Source of the DNA: a virus
Reading direction: 5' to 3' (one strand)
IMG/VR virus record: IMGVR_UViG_3300006802_000437
Span: 1 to 27,211 of that record
Length of the DNA stretch: 27,211 bases
Shown: positions 6,782 to 22,177 of the stretch, piece by piece
Layout: each line of letters begins with the position of its first letter
How positions within the stretch are numbered: the stretch's first letter is position 1
Notes under the pieces: model-generated
Database searches by the model: none
What the model was told of the DNA's origin: nothing
The model's input: the letters and a program-made list of their open reading frames with translations, nothing else
Translations under genes and position numbers: made by a program

Positions 6782-8257
6782 CTAATAATATTTATAATCC
6801 TTTTCTAATTTCATTGGAGGATCATCCCAATCATCCGAGTATGTTGAAATAAATCCACCTTGTCGATATCTTAACACAGCTTGTGTCATGCTGTCTACAT
6901 AGTCATCATACTGTCCGTTAGGAAATGCTGCACATTCCTCAATAACCTCCTGTGCCCAGTGTTCATCGGGAGCAAATACCATACCAGACTCAAAAACAGG
7001 TGCTACTGAGTTAATTCTAGTGTGTTTATCTCTACCCCTTGCTGGAACATAATCGATTACGGGTATACCCGCTCTACGCAATTCCTGAATTAGGGGTTGA
7101 CCAGAAGCTTTAGCTTCAACAATTACAGTCTCAGGTTCCCAATAGTGATATTGTTCTAAGGCTAAATTTTTTAAATCAGGAAAATCATAACGTCCCTTTT
7201 GTGCATCTAATAACATAATACATTTTTCATAACCTTCTACAGGTTCAAAGATTCCCCAAGTTGTAATCGCTGAATAGTCTGCAGTTTCTTTTTTTGAAAA
7301 TGCAGTATCATAACTTTGTATGACATGTAATAATTTTGGTAAATGTTCTTTATCCCAGACTTGCCACCAATCTCTTTTAATGATTGCACCTTCTTCTGAA
7401 GTTGGATCTTGCATGTATTGTGCATTCCAATTTTTTACAGAAATAGATGCTTTGACAGAGTCAAGATCTTCTTTGTTCCAATACTCAGGCCATACTGGTT
7501 TATCGTTTGGAAGTATTGCAGGAAACTCAATAACCTTCCACTTGTCCGCTTTCGATTCTTTTTGTGCCTTGATTAATCGTCCAGTCAAATCGTCTACCGC
7601 CCAACGGGTCATGACTACACAAATACGGCCACCGGGTTGTAAACGTTGTCGTGGCCCTGATGTATACCATTCATAAGCACGTTCCATTGCTGAGTCTGAC
7701 ATAGAGTCTTGCTCAGTGTGTGGGTCATCGATAATAAGTAAATCCGCCCCTCGCCCTGTGATAGAGCCGCCTACCCCCGCTGCAAAATATTCTCCACCAT
7801 GATTGGTCTCCCAACGGCCTTTAGCCTTACTATCTTCTCGGAGTGTAACATTTCCGAAAATCATTTTATACTCCTTGGTATTCATTAAATTACGAACCTT
7901 ACTACCAAACCTAGATGATAATTCTGCGTTGTGTGAAACTTGCATAATTTTCATCTTAGGAAACTTCCCTATCATCCAAGCAGGAAATAAGTAAGAAGCA
8001 AATTCTGATTTAGTATGTCTAGGAGGCATATTTATAATGAGCCTCTTTTCTTTGTTAGCAGCTATATCCTCAAAAGCATGTGCAATAATTTGGTGGTGTC
8101 CATATTTTTTTGGATTATCTGTTTTTCTATAAATAAAATCTTCCCAAACAGTTTGGGCAAATATTAAAAAATTATCTTGAACTAATTTAATCCATTCTAA
8201 TTGTTTTTTAAAAATTATATTTTTTAATTCTTCATCTGATAATCGATCTATATCCAT
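6782..8257 (-). CDS. terL: Terminase large subunit (491 aa)
   Basis: The packaging motor and headful/cos nuclease. The ATPase half shows Walker A-like MPPRHTKSE (residues 77-85), Walker B LLIIDDPH (173-180) and a coupling-type motif VVMTRW (214-219). The RuvC-like nuclease half shows SYDTAF with D317, VIVEAKASG with E381, and YDDYVDSM with acidic residues 451-455. All key residues are present, so it should be active. Its length is normal for TerL. It docks on the portal and is guided by TerS, here encoded about 5.6 kb upstream rather than next door. The start ATG at 8257 is preceded by a GGGGG tract 11 bases upstream, part of a CCCCCGGGGG palindrome. Confidence 0.96.
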   Translation of the reverse strand: MDIDRLSDEELKNIIFKKQLEWIKLVQDNFLIFAQTVWEDFIYRKTDNPKKYGHHQIIAHAFEDIAANKEKRLIINMPPRHTKSEFASYLFPAWMIGKFPKMKIMQVSHNAELSSRFGSKVRNLMNTKEYKMIFGNVTLREDSKAKGRWETNHGGEYFAAGVGGSITGRGADLLIIDDPHTEQDSMSDSAMERAYEWYTSGPRQRLQPGGRICVVMTRWAVDDLTGRLIKAQKESKADKWKVIEFPAILPNDKPVWPEYWNKEDLDSVKASISVKNWNAQYMQDPTSEEGAIIKRDWWQVWDKEHLPKLLHVIQSYDTAFSKKETADYSAITTWGIFEPVEGYEKCIMLLDAQKGRYDFPDLKNLALEQYHYWEPETVIVEAKASGQPLIQELRRAGIPVIDYVPARGRDKHTRINSVAPVFESGMVFAPDEHWAQEVIEECAAFPNGQYDDYVDSMTQAVLRYRQGGFISTYSDDWDDPPMKLEKDYKYY

Positions 8258-11035: not shown

Positions 11036-11257
11036 CCAGCAACGAGAACGAGAACGAGAGCTTCCTGCTGATCCAGCACGGCTGGTGCTGCAGGGGGCTC
11101 TTTCCGGTGTTCATTGTAAACAAGAAACGAGGAATTGCAACGAGAAACGACACGAGCTTCACGGAGAACGCTGCTGGGCAGGTGCTAAGAGCTCTGCCTG
11201 GATAGCGGGCCATTGTCCTGTAAGCGAGAAACGAGAACGAGGCTTCAGTAAACGAGG
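11036..11257. repeat. Degenerate AACGAGA-rich repeats
   Basis: The plus strand carries runs of AACGAGA: three tandem units at 11040-11059, others near 11121-11131, 11139-11156 and 11224-11241, plus AAACGAGG at 11250-11257. Three of the clusters are followed by GAG(G)CTTC (cttc at 11061, 11157 and 11243). The segment is richer in G/C and in CTG/CAG than its surroundings. It fills the 211-bp gap at 10948-11158 and also forms the last part of the nuclease gene. Related AACGAGA strings occur at 10149-10160 and 10180-10187. Confidence 0.65.
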
Positions 11258-11560
11258 ATCCGTGAAAACGGACACTGGTTCATACAGTTTGAGGACTCCC
11301 TCCGAGAGGGCCTCAACCAAGATAAATACTTTTCCACCCGCCTTGATATATTTATTGATCCAAACAATTTGCCACTTATTAAGCTTAGGATAACTGACAT
11401 AATCTGATTTTAATTCTATCCAAAATACACTGGTATTAGATACTGCGTGTACATCAGGAATACCATTGATTGTGCTAGATTCTATGCGAGTAAAAAAGAT
11501 TTCTGGGCAACCTTTTTTTAGTTTTTGCCACAACAAACTCTCACGATTTTTAGCTGCCAT
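11159..11560 (-). CDS. VRR-NUC-like PD-(D/E)XK nuclease (133 aa)
   Basis: A small nuclease of the VRR-NUC/Holliday-resolvase-like type. Visible motifs are RES.LW near the start (E7), GIPDVHAV (residues about 33-40, the PD aspartate), FWIELKS (about 46-52, the E-x-K pair) and KLNKWQIVWINKYIKAGGKVFIL. Phage relatives cut branched or stacked DNA. The core ends near YEPVSVFTDP (residue about 102). The remaining 30 residues (SRFSLTGQ, AIQAELLAPAQQ) are encoded by the AACGAGA repeat segment and do not look like part of the fold. The ATG lies just after the oxygenase stop, so it is the last gene of the halogenase operon. Confidence 0.75.
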   Translation of the reverse strand: MAAKNRESLLWQKLKKGCPEIFFTRIESSTINGIPDVHAVSNTSVFWIELKSDYVSYPKLNKWQIVWINKYIKAGGKVFILVEALSEGVLKLYEPVSVFTDPRLLKPRSRFSLTGQWPAIQAELLAPAQQRSP

Positions 11561-11561
11561 A

Positions 11562-12080
11562 TCAAGTCAAGACTATGTTAATATTTGTTCTAAATGGCAT
11601 ATCTGTTTGAGTCACAGGTCTATGCTTTACAGTGCCATCAAATAAGATCAAGCTGTTCTCAACTGACTCTACCCGTTCACCAGCAGGAGAGTATTCTAAA
11701 TACCCATTACAAGTATTTAATTGATAGATTGCAACGAGATGAGAGTAGTCTTCATCAGTGTGATAATCAAACTTAATTGGTTCCTTATCTCTGTAATAGT
11801 TATTAATCCAAATTCTTTTGTATGTATTAAAATTTAATTTACCCAACAAAGGCATCATAATTTCATGAAAGAATGGTGAATAGAATCTTTGTGGATGTTC
11901 AGTAAATAAATAATGCTGTTGTTTCCAAACCTGACTTGCTTCTATCTTGTCATCATTAACAATTTTATTATCATTACCAAGCTCAAGGGATTCATTAAAC
12001 CAAGGAAAGTCTCGGTGATACACCATTGTACATATACGCTTATGATCTTCTTTGCTTAGAAAGTTTTTATATAACTTCAT
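11562..12080 (-). CDS. 2OG-Fe(II) oxygenase, HxD type (172 aa)
   Basis: Predicted 2-oxoglutarate and Fe(II)-dependent dioxygenase. The iron ligands are visible as FDYHTDEDYSH (H107, D109) and VKHRPV (H153); R164 in MPFRTNINIV is placed to bind 2-oxoglutarate. Between them LVAIYQLNTCNGYLEYSPAGE and ENSLILFDG form the usual jelly-roll strands. Substrate cannot be told: candidates are peptidyl residues, free amino acids or a small molecule. Its start overlaps the stop of the 96-aa companion as ATGA, and the nuclease follows within two bases, so it is translated with the halogenase operon. Confidence 0.88.
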   Translation of the reverse strand: MKLYKNFLSKEDHKRICTMVYHRDFPWFNESLELGNDNKIVNDDKIEASQVWKQQHYLFTEHPQRFYSPFFHEIMMPLLGKLNFNTYKRIWINNYYRDKEPIKFDYHTDEDYSHLVAIYQLNTCNGYLEYSPAGERVESVENSLILFDGTVKHRPVTQTDMPFRTNINIVLT

Positions 12081-12367
12081 AGTTTAGTTATCTTTACAAT
12101 AACTGTATTAGGAATGATAGTAGTATTTCCTATAGATTCTATCTCTCCCTTATCATCTGTGGAACAGTCTGCAAACAGTCTAGTAATACCTTTAGACTGA
12201 CTAAATAAATGTCCTTTAGAAGTACAAGTAGCTAGTCTAGCTTTTTTGAGATCTTCAATAGTTAACCAACTCGCATCACTCACGATGTCCAACCAGTCTA
12301 CAGCTACCATAGGAAATTTATCTTTCCAATGTTTGGCTCGTTTTTTAATTACTATTTTTTTATTCAT
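12077..12367 (-). CDS. Conserved small protein between halogenase and oxygenase (96 aa)
   Basis: Begins with a basic stretch (MNKKIVIKKRAKHWKDKF) followed by VDWLDIVSDASWLTIEDLKKARLA, then CTSKGHLFSQ and KGITRLFADCS, and ends NTTIIPNTVIVKITKL. I recall short phage proteins with a DW.DI.SD.SW, CTSKGHL.SQ.KG..R pattern, of unknown function, also outside halogenase loci, so a dedicated halogenase partner is not certain. It overlaps the halogenase stop by 8 bases and the oxygenase start by 4, so its dosage is tied to both. Confidence 0.8.
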   Translation of the reverse strand: MNKKIVIKKRAKHWKDKFPMVAVDWLDIVSDASWLTIEDLKKARLATCTSKGHLFSQSKGITRLFADCSTDDKGEIESIGNTTIIPNTVIVKITKL

Positions 12368-13811
12368 CTACTACTCTTTCTCCTTTCATAACTTGTTGAA
12401 GCCATTTATCATGATAAATATACTCCACAGCAAACTGCTGATCTACCTCATGGTTTTTTTCGAAAAATAGCTGTTTTTTGATAGCCTCAGGTAAAGCTTC
12501 ATAGTGTGATTTGACCATATCTTGATCTAACAAACCCATTCCATACATTACGATTGCATAATGTTGATCTCTCCATAATGCATAATGGCCATCATCAAAA
12601 TCATCTTTAGTTAATAATCTGCTTTTAACTATTTCTAGTTTAGCAGCAAGACTATCTGGTATATCCATACTAGCCTTATCTCTCCAAAACTTAGTGTCTG
12701 TTCTTTTAGTTCTGTAGTGTAATATTAAAAAGTCTCTGATGTTCTCAACCAACTTAATAAATTGTTTATTGTATCTATTAATAACAACCTGATCATAATT
12801 AATTAAATTTGTAGCTAACATAAATGATTGTTGTACTGATGTTGCAATAGAAGAAGCTTCTAATGGTTCAAAAAAACTACCCGTTAAACCAATAGCAAAA
12901 CAATTACCTTTCCAGGTCTCTTCTAAATAACCAGCTGTAAATCTTATAGTCCTAATATTATCTTTAGCTGCAAGCTCAACATTATTTATTTCTTCCATAG
13001 CCTCATCCTCTGACAAATAGTTAGAATCAAATATGTATCCATTACCTTGTTTGTCTTGTAGAGGTACTTTAAATTTCCAACCTGCTGACAGTGCATGAGC
13101 TTCAGTCCATAGATCAGGTACTTCATCCTTATAGGTACGATATGTAATAGCTGTATTTAATGATAACCAAGGATCTACACCAATCCACTTAGCATTTAAT
13201 TTAGACATTAATAATTTTTTAAAACCTGTAGCATCAATCCAGAAATTAGAATGATATATGACTTTACCTTTTACTGAATGTATTCCATGCTCTCCTGTAT
13301 GTACTTCTGTAATCTCATCATCAATAACATTAACACCACGTTCTTCACTTTTCTTTTTTAAGAATGTATTTAATTTAAGATTATCAAAATGAAATTGGTT
13401 AACTGGTTTTCTAACTTCACCATTTAATTGTTTAGCTAAATGTTCTACAGGGCCAATATGTATACCAGAATAATTATTATAAAATTTATATAATAATTTA
13501 ATTTTGGTATTGAAATAATCTTTCATAATAGAATTATCTACTGAATGAATATAATCTTTATGACCCCAATTTTTGTAATAAATAGATGTCTTTAATGTAA
13601 CTCCACATTCTCTAATAATTTCATCTGCTGTAATACCAACAGTTTTAATAAAAGTATCCCAATGAGGTGTACTACCTTCTCCTACTCCAATAATACCAAT
13701 CTTATCAGATTTAATTAAATTAATATTTAGATGAGGATATTTTGTTTTTAAAACTAATGCAGCTACATAACCTGCAGTACCACCACCAACAATACAAAGA
13801 TCACTTTTCAT
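12360..13811 (-). CDS. Flavin-dependent tryptophan-halogenase family protein (483 aa)
   Basis: An FADH2-dependent halogenase of the PrnA/RebH family (Trp_halogenase). Seen: FAD-binding IVGGGTAGYVAA (7-18), GVGEGSTPH (42-50), the candidate catalytic lysine K74 in TLKTSIYYKNW, the halogenase motif as GWKFKVP (244-250, a WxFxVP variant of WxWxIP), IDATGF (192-197), and GSFFEPLEASS (311-321) with the active-site glutamate. Thus it looks catalytically intact. These enzymes oxidise halide to a hypohalous acid that reacts via the lysine. A cyanophage member (VirX1) halogenates varied substrates, so the substrate need not be free tryptophan. No flavin reductase is encoded nearby, so it would use a host reductase. 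It overlaps the 35-aa frame upstream and the 96-aa gene downstream. Confidence 0.92.
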   Translation of the reverse strand: MKSDLCIVGGGTAGYVAALVLKTKYPHLNINLIKSDKIGIIGVGEGSTPHWDTFIKTVGITADEIIRECGVTLKTSIYYKNWGHKDYIHSVDNSIMKDYFNTKIKLLYKFYNNYSGIHIGPVEHLAKQLNGEVRKPVNQFHFDNLKLNTFLKKKSEERGVNVIDDEITEVHTGEHGIHSVKGKVIYHSNFWIDATGFKKLLMSKLNAKWIGVDPWLSLNTAITYRTYKDEVPDLWTEAHALSAGWKFKVPLQDKQGNGYIFDSNYLSEDEAMEEINNVELAAKDNIRTIRFTAGYLEETWKGNCFAIGLTGSFFEPLEASSIATSVQQSFMLATNLINYDQVVINRYNKQFIKLVENIRDFLILHYRTKRTDTKFWRDKASMDIPDSLAAKLEIVKSRLLTKDDFDDGHYALWRDQHYAIVMYGMGLLDQDMVKSHYEALPEAIKKQLFFEKNHEVDQQFAVEYIYHDKWLQQVMKGERVVDE

Positions 13812-13908
13812 CGACTTTTACATTAATTACGCCTAGTGATGTCATCAAGTGACTGTTGTGTCTTTTATTAAATATTTTAATAAACTCAGACCAACTAGCC
13901 CTGTTCAA
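13801..13908 (-). CDS. Possible short protein linking TerS and halogenase (35 aa, TTG start)
   Basis: After the TerS stop an overlapping frame reads NRASWSEFIKIFNKRHNSHL and ends NVKVDEK. A TTG at 13908 with AAGAG just upstream, or a frame extending back inside terS to an ATG, could start it. Its stop overlaps the halogenase ATG by 11 bases, so it could couple TerS translation to the halogenase. Composition looks protein-like (aromatic and charged residues evenly spread), but no family is known. An alternative is a frameshifted extension of TerS. Confidence 0.4.
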   Translation of the reverse strand: MNRASWSEFIKIFNKRHNSHLMTSLGVINVKVDEK

Positions 13909-14419
13909 TCTCTTTTGTGTCTTCAATAACTTCGATGGTTTTTGCATTGTATCCATCGATTTTATTTGAAAGCTCTTTGAGTTTTTTTTCAAGCTCTTCA
14001 CGTGACATACCCTCCAGACCAGTTACTTTTACTTCTCTCCTATCTACATACTGACCTGCTAATTGTCCAGATCTGTATTCAGCATTAATAGCAGCAGCAT
14101 ATTGTTTATCAGCTTCTGCATTTAAAGCAATTCGTTCTAATCTTTTATATCGTCTTAGGTTATCACCTTCATACTTCGCACATTCTTCCTTATAAATTTT
14201 ATCTAAATATTTAACAACGTGAGGGTTCAATTTTCTATTTGTTAATCTACTAGCTATAACTGAATAATCATTCGAATTCTTACATTCATATCCCGCTTCT
14301 TTTAAAGCATCAGCTTTTGTGATATTGCCCCAATTTTTAACATAGATATCCACAAACTTCTTTTGCTTTAGAGTCAAGTCATCTTCTGTTCTCAGTTCTT
14401 TCTTTTTCAATCCTGGCAT
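13895..14419 (-). CDS. terS: Terminase small subunit (174 aa)
   Basis: The DNA-recognition subunit of the packaging motor. The N-terminal region LTLKQKKFVDIYVKNWGN followed by KADALKEAGY is the typical TerS helix-turn-helix opening (Terminase_2 type: KQ.KFV..Y...GN.T.AA..AGY), here residues about 16-44. The middle (RRYKRLERIALNAEADKQYAAAINAEYRSGQLAGQY) matches the oligomerising helices and the DRREV end seen in the family. The C-terminal 40 residues are charged and probably disordered. It binds a packaging start site, and the repeat array just upstream (14508-14610) is a candidate. Unusually it is not adjacent to terL. Confidence 0.85.
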   Translation of the reverse strand: MPGLKKKELRTEDDLTLKQKKFVDIYVKNWGNITKADALKEAGYECKNSNDYSVIASRLTNRKLNPHVVKYLDKIYKEECAKYEGDNLRRYKRLERIALNAEADKQYAAAINAEYRSGQLAGQYVDRREVKVTGLEGMSREELEKKLKELSNKIDGYNAKTIEVIEDTKEIEQG

Positions 14420-18043: not shown

Positions 18044-18220
18044 ATGTCCTCTAATAAAACCTTAATCATAAATGATTACAAAAAATATTGGATTACTGAT
18101 ACCAAGAAGGGTCATTTAATAACTATTTGTCATGGGCCAGAAGATAAAGTTTTAAAGTTAAAATTAAATTGGAAAAATAGACATCGAAGTAATGCAGGAA
18201 GAGTCCTTAATAAAAGATAG
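18044..18220 (+). CDS. Small basic protein (58 aa)
   Basis: An ATG at 18044 opens a 58-codon frame: MSSNKTLIINDYKKYWITDT, then KKGHLITICHGPEDKVLKL and a basic end NWKNRHRSNAGRVLNKR. Strand-rich with a positively charged tail. It fills the gap between the 62-aa gene and the oxygenase, overlapping the latter by 29 bases. No family recognised; supported by position and protein-like composition. Confidence 0.55.
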   Translation: MSSNKTLIINDYKKYWITDTKKGHLITICHGPEDKVLKLKLNWKNRHRSNAGRVLNKR

Positions 18221-18707
18221 CTGGATTTATAATGTACCTAAACACATAGTACATAAACCAATTCTCATTGATAAAATGAGATTGATACCACAAAATAAAA
18301 TAGATCAAATTTCACACACTGATTATAATTTACCTGCGAGTATGATTATTGAGTGGAGAGAATATTTTTTTAAAAATATTTATCATGAATTTAAATTAGA
18401 CTTTGAAGATAAGATTAAAAGTAAAATTGGTTTACACAACGCCTGGTTCCAATGGTATGAAAAAAATGATTTTCATGTATGGCATATTCATGGAGGTGTT
18501 CACTTTACAAATATTTATTATTTATCTATGCCAAACAAAGAAGTTAAAACAACTATTAAACATATTGAGCAGCTAAAATCTTTTGATGTAATGGAAGGAC
18601 AGATCTTAACTATACCCTCTTATTGGTGGCACAAGTCTCCAGTAAATTTGTTTGATGATCCTAAAATTATTATCTCTTTTAATACTTCAATTAAAATGAA
18701 CGAATAG
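18192..18707 (+). CDS. 2OG-Fe(II) oxygenase-like protein, HxH type (171 aa)
   Basis: Residues NAWFQWYEKNDFHVWHIHGG (83-102) carry the paired histidines H98/H100, and IPSYWWHKSP (141-150) the distal H147, followed by KIIISFNTSI. This is the layout of the putative 2OG-Fe(II) oxygenase family PF13759 common in marine phages (W.N.Y.KGD...HIH, then PS...H...). A usual 2OG-binding arginine after the distal histidine is not obvious here, since the segment reads DDPKIIIS. So activity is less sure than for the HxD enzymes. Last gene of the rightward cluster, ending three bases from the convergent polymerase gene. Confidence 0.7.
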   Translation: MQEESLIKDSWIYNVPKHIVHKPILIDKMRLIPQNKIDQISHTDYNLPASMIIEWREYFFKNIYHEFKLDFEDKIKSKIGLHNAWFQWYEKNDFHVWHIHGGVHFTNIYYLSMPNKEVKTTIKHIEQLKSFDVMEGQILTIPSYWWHKSPVNLFDDPKIIISFNTSIKMNE

Positions 18708-20579: not shown

Positions 20580-20719
20580 TTATTATTATTACTTATAACT
20601 TTTATTAATTGATTTGCAACTGTTGTGGTAGGGTTGAAATCTCTTAAATTTTTAACGCAATTTGATGTTAAAAATAGTAACATAATACTTAACACTACAA
20701 AGATTTTTTTACACTGCAT
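20576..20719 (-). CDS. Small lipoprotein-like peptide (47 aa)
   Basis: Frame from ATG at 20719: MQCKKIFVVLSIMLLFLTSN followed directly by C21, then VKNLRDFNPTTTVANQLIKV. It looks like a bacterial lipoprotein: basic n-region, hydrophobic core, cysteine. The residue before the cysteine is Asn rather than Gly/Ala/Ser, so the lipobox is imperfect. The start overlaps the oxygenase stop and the stop overlaps the polymerase start (ATGA), so it is embedded between two real genes. Possible role in superinfection exclusion is inference. Confidence 0.6.
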   Translation of the reverse strand: MQCKKIFVVLSIMLLFLTSNCVKNLRDFNPTTTVANQLIKVISNNNK

Positions 20720-21290
20720 AAATATTTCCTGACATAGTAATTCTTGGTAAGTCAGAAGTATAAAATGGATATACAGAGTGTTTTAAAAAAGCTGGAAATA
20801 TAAAACCTTTTCCTTCGTAAGTCTTGTCGACAGGTATGTTATGTTCAGTAATACCTCCTCGACTTGCTTGGTCTAAATGTAAAAATTGTAAGAATCCTGA
20901 TAGTGGTGAATTACTATGTCTTGATTTAGGATTATTCATTTCATCTTGGATTAGAAAGGGTATTTGTATAAATAATATAAAACTAAATAGACCTGAGTGT
21001 GAATGAGCAGGGTTAAATTCATGTTTGTGCATATGATTTACCCAAAAATCTTGTTGTTTAAGTTTTAAATGTTTTGTTACTTTAACTGTTTTTAAATGAT
21101 TACTTGAATTTGTTTTAGGATCCTTAATTATATTCATTAAGGTGGGTTCAATCAAAGGTATATATTTAGTCAAATCATATTCTTTTTCGATGTTTCCTGC
21201 TAGATCTACATTTTTATCAGAACTAGTATCGTTTGCGATACCTTTTAAACTTTTAAATACTTCAGGTGGTATATCAAAAAAATCAAGCAC
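20709..21290 (-). CDS. 2OG-Fe(II) oxygenase, HxH type (193 aa, GTG start)
   Basis: The iron-site motif is HKHEFNPAHSHSG (88-100, H96 and H98) with distal H171 in FPAFLKHSVYPF and a candidate 2OG-binding R183 in DLPRITMSGN. This matches the PF13759-type putative oxygenases found in cyanophage and other marine phage genomes. Substrate unknown; often suggested to hydroxylate proteins or to manage nitrogen/2OG signals. GTG at 21290 is the start (MLDFFDIPPEVFKSL), overlapping the membrane peptide. It lies in the replication operon upstream of polA. Confidence 0.8.
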   Translation of the reverse strand: MLDFFDIPPEVFKSLKGIANDTSSDKNVDLAGNIEKEYDLTKYIPLIEPTLMNIIKDPKTNSSNHLKTVKVTKHLKLKQQDFWVNHMHKHEFNPAHSHSGLFSFILFIQIPFLIQDEMNNPKSRHSNSPLSGFLQFLHLDQASRGGITEHNIPVDKTYEGKGFIFPAFLKHSVYPFYTSDLPRITMSGNIYAV

Positions 21291-21372: not shown

Positions 21373-21611
21373 CACGAATAATCTCTTTCTAATATCATTT
21401 CTAAATAGTGTATGGCCTTTTGGATATCTTTTTCTTTGCCTTTTGACTGATGCCTACAAATGTACTTAATTGCATTGCCCTCAGCAAATAAAATTTTATT
21501 TTCATTAATAAATTCTGCGGGCTGAATCTTCATTTTAGAGTAGTGATTCCCGCCTACCTGCTTTTCTAAAGAATCATAAGTAGCTCCCTTAAACATATCT
21601 TTATGTGTCAT
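21372..21611 (-). CDS. DUF3310 protein (79 aa)
   Basis: EKQVGGNHYSKMKIQPAEFI then FAEGNAIKYICRHQSKGK and IQKAIHYLEMIL are the signature of DUF3310, a small phage family sometimes described as nucleotide-kinase-like but without proven activity. I start at the ATG at 21611 (MTHKDMFKG), which overlaps the oxygenase stop as TAATG and has a GGGGG six bases upstream. An ATG at 21623 would add four residues. Typical of phage replication/nucleotide operons, as here. Confidence 0.9.
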   Translation of the reverse strand: MTHKDMFKGATYDSLEKQVGGNHYSKMKIQPAEFINENKILFAEGNAIKYICRHQSKGKEKDIQKAIHYLEMILERDYS

Positions 21612-22177
21612 TAATACCCCCATCCTACGAATGAAATTCGTTCACCTTTTAAACAATCAGTTACTCTGTGTGGAAACATAAAATTAGATGGAAATAAAAT
21701 AACATCGCCTTTACCCATAGCTACTCTCTTGTCTCTACATATAAATTCTGATCCTTCAAAGTCATCATTTAAGTTACCTACTATACTTAATATAGGAATT
21801 CCTTTTTCATTACCATCAAAAATTGAATGTATATGATCTTGATGTTCTTTCATATAACTGCCTGGAGCATACTTATTAAATCTAAGTCTTGTAATCTTAG
21901 TTATAAATTCGTTTTTTGTATTCTCGGCTTTACCACAAAATGTTTTTTGATATTCTCTAATTAACTGATGTAGGAGAGGGTGCAGCAATCCACATAAATC
22001 ATCAGGCATATAAGAACAGATAACACCCTCTGTATCTCTGTCATGAAACTCATTTCTATTATTATTATGCCATAAATGTTTTTCCCACTCTAATTCTTTT
22101 GACCTTTCTATTAGCATATCGCATATGCTAGATGGTATAATATTGCCTTTCATTATATACTTTTCAATCATAATCAA
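21611..22177 (-). CDS. 2OG-Fe(II) oxygenase, prolyl-hydroxylase-like HxD type (188 aa)
   Basis: The protein shows RLRFNKYAPGSYMKEHQDHIHS with H112 and D114, then SIVGNLNDDFEGSEFIC, GDVILFPSNFMFPHRVTD (H170) and GERISFVGWGY with R180. This is the full HxD...H...R set of prolyl-4-hydroxylase-like dioxygenases, so it should be active. Phage members are thought to act on proteins or nucleotides; target unknown. It starts inside the end of the 68-aa gene and is coupled to DUF3310 downstream. Confidence 0.9.
   Translation of the reverse strand: MIMIEKYIMKGNIIPSSICDMLIERSKELEWEKHLWHNNNRNEFHDRDTEGVICSYMPDDLCGLLHPLLHQLIREYQKTFCGKAENTKNEFITKITRLRFNKYAPGSYMKEHQDHIHSIFDGNEKGIPILSIVGNLNDDFEGSEFICRDKRVAMGKGDVILFPSNFMFPHRVTDCLKGERISFVGWGY

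Follow-up and report, generated by a model that had tools for sequence, protein, structure and literature searches.

A halogenase gene and a 2OG-Fe(II) oxygenase gene flanking a resident gene in a probable SAR11 phage

When a halogenase and a 2OG-Fe(II) oxygenase are encoded in a single run of overlapping phage genes, do they belong to a dedicated operon whose products act together, or are they separate cargoes stacked in one compact region? The question is raised by the IMG/VR virus record IMGVR_UViG_3300006802_000437, positions 1-27,211 (the window, i.e., the whole 27,211-nt stretch analysed here), in which a block of four genes had been described preliminarily as an overlapping operon, with the halogenase and the oxygenase as possible partners in sequential chemistry on one substrate. 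The genes referred to below are the following (coordinates in the window):

13895..14419, minus strand: small terminase subunit (TerS), phrog_51 E 3e-9, PF03592 E 2e-5; resident
13801..13908, minus strand: predicted gene of ~35 aa with a TTG start (LNRASWSEFIKIFNKRHNSHLMTSLGVINVKVDEK), homologues with the same start; resident
12360..13811, minus strand: flavin-dependent (tryptophan-type) halogenase, 483 aa, PF04820 E 7e-93; cargo gene, first of the block
12077..12367, minus strand: 96-aa "companion", small beta-rich protein, phrog_25889; resident, second of the block
11562..12080, minus strand: 2OG-Fe(II) oxygenase, 172 aa, phrog_274 ("DNA endonuclease V") E 1e-22; cargo gene, third of the block
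11159..11560, minus strand: nuclease-like protein (Hjc/PD-(D/E)XK-type), 133 aa, phrog_2165 and Hjc matches; resident, fourth of the block
18192..18707, plus strand: second 2OG-Fe(II) oxygenase, phrog_81 E 8e-18, PF13759 E 9e-7; outside the block
20709..21290, minus strand: third 2OG-Fe(II) oxygenase, PF13759 E 1e-7, above the Pfam cut-off; outside the block
21611..22177, minus strand: fourth 2OG-Fe(II) oxygenase, PF13640 E 6e-10, above the Pfam cut-off; outside the block

The four reading frames of the block, which all run on the minus strand, and their junctions were confirmed: the end of the halogenase gene overlaps the beginning of the 96-aa gene by 8 nt (12360-12367), an ATGA at 12077-12080 is common to the stop of the 96-aa gene and the start of the oxygenase, and a gap of 1 nt (11561) separates the oxygenase from the nuclease. 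The gene reading is not a product of chance, because the block genes were found again in independent metagenome contigs (82-100% identity) and their dN/dS is low (halogenase 0.23-0.36; oxygenase 0.09-0.12; nuclease 0.16-0.41; 96-aa gene 0.10-0.27 where dS was measurable, one comparison with saturated dS being left out); all four are under purifying selection. The identity of the nuclease is a weaker call, with a phrog_2165 match at E 5e-14 and an Hjc match (E 0.003) that lies below the Pfam cut-off.

The first reading had passed over the three 2OG-oxygenase genes outside the block and the ~35-aa gene between TerS and the halogenase, apparently an overlooked gene, which overlaps TerS by 14 nt and the upstream side of the halogenase by 11 nt. 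Homologues of the ~35-aa gene with the identical TTG start occur in dozens of related loci, and in 68 of 78 loci the 96-aa gene follows it within 200 nt; its conserved motif is SWSE[F/W]I..FN..HN. At the other end of the block, repeats of AACGAGAACGAG (plus strand, 11041-11058 and 11230-11241; 3 matches vs 0.03 expected) lie where G+C is raised (46% at 10-11 kb vs about 35% elsewhere), and the 3' end of the nuclease gene extends into this stretch. Similar repeat-coded RER/NEN stretches are found in related contigs.

TerL and PolA of the window are 70% and 61% identical, respectively, to those of Pelagibacter phage HTVC023P, and several flanking genes stand in HTVC023P order. Because of this HTVC023P-like backbone and because the 96-aa protein is found mainly in Pelagibacter phages (40 of the 43 annotated phage records that carry it), the host group is probably SAR11. 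The AlphaFold model of the 96-aa protein (pLDDT 90) gave weak Sm/Hfq-like matches in the PDB (E at least 0.4) and otherwise uncharacterised phage proteins; its candidacy as a halogenase subunit was ruled out, since it is resident in phages that have no halogenase.

The two enzymes

The PF04820 profile was matched over nearly its full length (2-449 of 458). The FAD motif GxGxxG reads GGGTAG (residues 9-14), and its G9, G11 and G14 are invariant in an alignment of seven phages, as are K74, W245, P250, E315 and E318. K74 and E318 (in EPLE) align with those of the solved halogenases 9luq and 6y1w, the nearest solved structures (best E 5e-55 among 30 solved homologues listed). The position of the WxWxIP motif reads WKFKVP, in which W245 and P250 are retained and F and V fill the remaining motif positions, and close relatives have WKFKIP. 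The FAD motif, K74 and the EPLE glutamate that the preliminary description had singled out in the halogenase are thus borne out by alignment with solved halogenases, with which its WxFxVP also aligns. In a maximum-likelihood tree the protein falls in a marine viral clade, where it forms a separate lineage together with the halogenase of one related locus, L025. The halogenase appears catalytically intact and is presumed to be active. A search of four related contigs turned up no phage-encoded flavin reductase, and FADH2 is therefore likely to come from a host reductase. With FADH2 from there the enzyme would form hypohalous acid, which K74 may steer onto an electron-rich aromatic, namely an indole or phenol that is either free or carried by a peptide.

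The lack of a flavin reductase in those contigs would also suit a different enzyme, namely a flavin monooxygenase similar to QhpG or LodB, whose role in vivo would be to oxidise tryptophan or tyrosine within proteins. The phenylalanine in place of the second aromatic of WxWxIP and weak NCBIfam matches (LodB 5e-7, QhpG 2e-5) point in the same direction, but both matches are far under the curated cut-offs, that to LodB is confined to the N-terminal FAD region, solved halogenases score far higher, and the halogenase active-site residues K74 and E318 are retained. We regard a monooxygenase as distinctly unlikely and treat the protein as a halogenase.

In the oxygenase, H107, D109 and H153 (the HxD...H iron triad), the 2OG-binding arginine R164, and also N168 do not vary across 19 homologues, so that the HTD...H...R signature proposed earlier stands; neither enzyme shows active-site loss on alignment. 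The AlphaFold model (pLDDT 89) has a double-stranded beta-helix fold, and its best Foldseek matches, at E about 2e-6 and TM about 0.6, are PHD2 (HIF prolyl hydroxylase) and ALKBH3. Since the window protein matches no Pfam family at E 0.01, its membership in the 2OG-Fe(II) superfamily rests on motif and predicted fold; a relative, from locus L094, reaches PF13640 (E 5e-5). The protein looks like an intact catalyst, presumably active, that would hydroxylate or demethylate its own target with 2OG and Fe(II). A comparison with the bacterial DUF6445, whose genes occur close to some of the bacterial halogenases, gave an hhalign probability of 9.5% over 35 columns.

All 19 aligned homologues match phrog_274, a family carried in many cyanophage records under the name "DNA endonuclease V". 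Because of the 2OG motif and the PHD2-like fold predicted for the window protein, this name looks wrong, and a large phage family annotated as an endonuclease is indicated to be one of 2OG oxygenases.

Presence and absence among related loci

Relatives were gathered through TerS and through the 96-aa protein, and 85 distinct readable intervals from TerS to the nuclease were compared. Neither enzyme is present in 80 of them, both in three, the halogenase only in one (L025) and the oxygenase only in one (L251); the halogenase is thus missing from 81 of the 85 and from all 78 loci that were collected by way of the 96-aa gene. The stretches read of HTVC023P, HTVC027P and HTVC103P contain neither enzyme. 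In two further loci, L184 and L191, the sequence breaks off within the halogenase gene. The three loci with both enzymes form a single clade, that of the window, in which the two always occur together. Each single-enzyme state is represented by one complete locus on a fragment (4.9 kb for L025, 12.3 kb for L251), so that the rest of either genome may hold the enzyme that is absent here. Identity is 55-57% for the L025 halogenase and 47% for the L251 oxygenase, which has the identical 4-nt overlap with the 96-aa gene. The closest relative of the 96-aa protein outside the clade is that of the oxygenase-only L251 (74%), vs 54% for the halogenase-bearing L025.

All four presence states therefore exist at one locus, and the 96-aa gene and the nuclease persist where the enzymes are absent, which shows that halogenase and oxygenase assort separately here, with a resident gene between them. 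Among the 85 intervals, the two enzymes occur together only in the three loci of the window's clade, and the 96-aa protein and the nuclease, described before as members of a halogenase operon, are residents that are found with or without either enzyme. The slot of the 96-aa gene may also hold other genes: in L181 the gene that stands there between TerS and the nuclease (7612-8025) encodes 137 aa and includes a zinc-peptidase-like HEIMH motif, and L192 has a different 98-aa gene.

In the empty loci, the resident genes from TerS through the ~35-aa gene (TTG start) and the 96-aa gene to the nuclease already overlap or lie only a short distance apart. Start/stop overlap is the rule for this region, with cargo or with none; it is a local habit, not a sign of a halogenase/oxygenase pair.

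The explanation that we consider probable is that of a halogenase and an oxygenase gained separately, as cargoes around resident genes, in a compact phage of probable SAR11 hosts; as part of the same explanation, the locus would serve an HTVC023P-like phage as a cargo region, which extends between the genes for the two terminase subunits, small and large, with TerS at its upstream edge. In a resident chain running from TerS through the ~35-aa gene and the 96-aa gene to the nuclease, a functional flavin-dependent halogenase would have been acquired ahead of the 96-aa gene and, in a separate gain, a PHD2-like 2OG-Fe(II) oxygenase behind it, each cargo keeping the compact start/stop overlaps of the region. 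That these events were gains, not losses, is itself presumed. Both enzymes would be present in the same infected cell, and a common substrate would not be required. The locus illustrates that genes which look like one operon with coupled translation can, where a phage genome is compact, be separate cargoes placed round resident genes, a caution against reading pathways from start/stop overlaps.

2OG genes beside other halogenases

That the two enzymes are a true pair acting sequentially on one substrate, with L025 and L251 as degenerate or rearranged versions of the locus, seems unlikely to us, although more than their constant company in the window's clade can be said for it. Among 41 non-redundant viral loci, 2OG genes number 0.41/kb within 1 kb of the halogenase vs about 0.11/kb at 2-6 kb, and an immediately adjacent same-strand 2OG gene accompanies 15 of the 41 halogenases vs 60 of the 343 other genes in these loci that encode 100 aa or more (odds ratio 2.7, p 0.006, uncorrected for kinship). 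The 2OG neighbours come from different subfamilies and are spread over several separate branches of the tree. In cyanophage S-H38 the halogenase is followed by a phrog_274 oxygenase with a 4-nt overlap, in Pelagibacter phage HTVC008M a 2OG gene overlaps the halogenase start, and of 80 loci with bacterial relatives of the halogenase, 46 have a Cupin_8 (JmjC-like) gene immediately next to it, in many cases together with SapC and a TonB-receptor-like gene. The 2OG counts are somewhat uncertain: iterated 2OG profiles drifted superfamily-wide and served only for the class "any 2OG", with an HxD/E...H filter and Pfam spot checks, in which two of 10 neighbours (L067 and L070) had no 2OG Pfam match, nor had L032:4279.

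Against a pair stand, besides the halogenase-only and oxygenase-only versions of the locus, the different subfamilies of the 2OG neighbours, and four annotated cyanophage halogenase loci (S-B64, S-SRM01, Sf-CH3 and S-PM2) that have no 2OG gene within 5 kb. Chance proximity is likely in the window itself: with four 2OG genes in 27 kb (among ~40 genes), we estimate that a 2OG gene would lie no more than two genes from the halogenase in about one case out of three, and the proximity of the two genes is therefore weak evidence. Of the partnership proposed at the outset, there remain two enzymes that both look intact and a tendency of marine viral halogenases toward a nearby 2OG gene, but a dedicated operon or obligate pair does not agree with L025, L251 and the 80 of 85 loci that lack both.

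We regard the neighbourhood trend as real, whatever it means, and the general association of halogenases with 2OG oxygenases is testable and worth testing. One meaning would be a widespread, undescribed modification, in which one kind of target (e.g., tryptophans of surface peptides or proteins) is both halogenated and hydroxylated, so that the halogenases of marine viruses and of the bacterial TonB/SapC loci would time and again have been joined by 2OG oxygenases from unrelated subfamilies; this generalization is unlikely, and separate gain remains our preferred reading for the window. Two placements may be recorded here. The halogenase genes of the bacterial loci (L328-L407) are often tandem pairs accompanied by SapC, Cupin_8 and a TonB-receptor-like gene, and in cyanophage S-SRM01 (L411, 4992-6449) the halogenase lies between the tail-fibre region and an adhesin-tip gene, which hints that some phage halogenases may modify virion proteins.

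Comparison with known systems

Halogenases in phages are already known, and the window, which probably belongs to a SAR11 phage, adds a new lineage to them. For cyanophages, a 2010 tabulation (PMC3037559) lists tryptophan halogenase genes (prnA, T4-GC 212) together with many 2OG oxygenases, and a 2023 review found halogenases in 20 of 153 cyanophages (PMC10452541). A limited literature search on the pairing of halogenases with 2OG oxygenases, on clusters with SapC or cupins, and on pelagiphage halogenases returned nothing pertinent.

The first viral halogenase to be characterised was VirX1 of cyanophage Syn10 (PMC8407142). It resembles the window protein as a viral flavin-dependent halogenase with a catalytic lysine (PDB 6qgm; PMC8407142), but no close sequence relation to this promiscuous, iodinating type was seen: VirX1 gave the weakest match (E 7e-32) among the 30 solved homologues listed. 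The bacterial clusters of TonB receptor, SapC, Cupin_8 and Trp_halogenase (Alteromonadaceae, Sphingomonadaceae, SAR92 and others) likewise place a PF04820 gene beside a 2OG-type gene; they differ in that their halogenases are about 28-35% identical to that of the window, the neighbour is JmjC-like instead of a phrog_274 oxygenase, and the setting is cellular, with an outer-membrane receptor and SapC.

The oxygenase has its counterparts in the cyanophage "DNA endonuclease V" proteins of phrog_274; it belongs to that family and retains HxD...H...R, and its predicted fold is PHD2/ALKBH3-like. The PrnA-type halogenases of P-SSM2, S-H38, S-SCSM2R and HTVC008M share with that of the window the family (PF04820/phrog_2928), the catalytic residues and the status of a marine-phage accessory gene, but identity is only 32-37%, and the window represents a smaller, HTVC023P-like phage with a different neighbourhood. 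In HTVC008M, an isolated SAR11 phage, the halogenase likewise lies between TerS and TerL and adjoins a 2OG gene.
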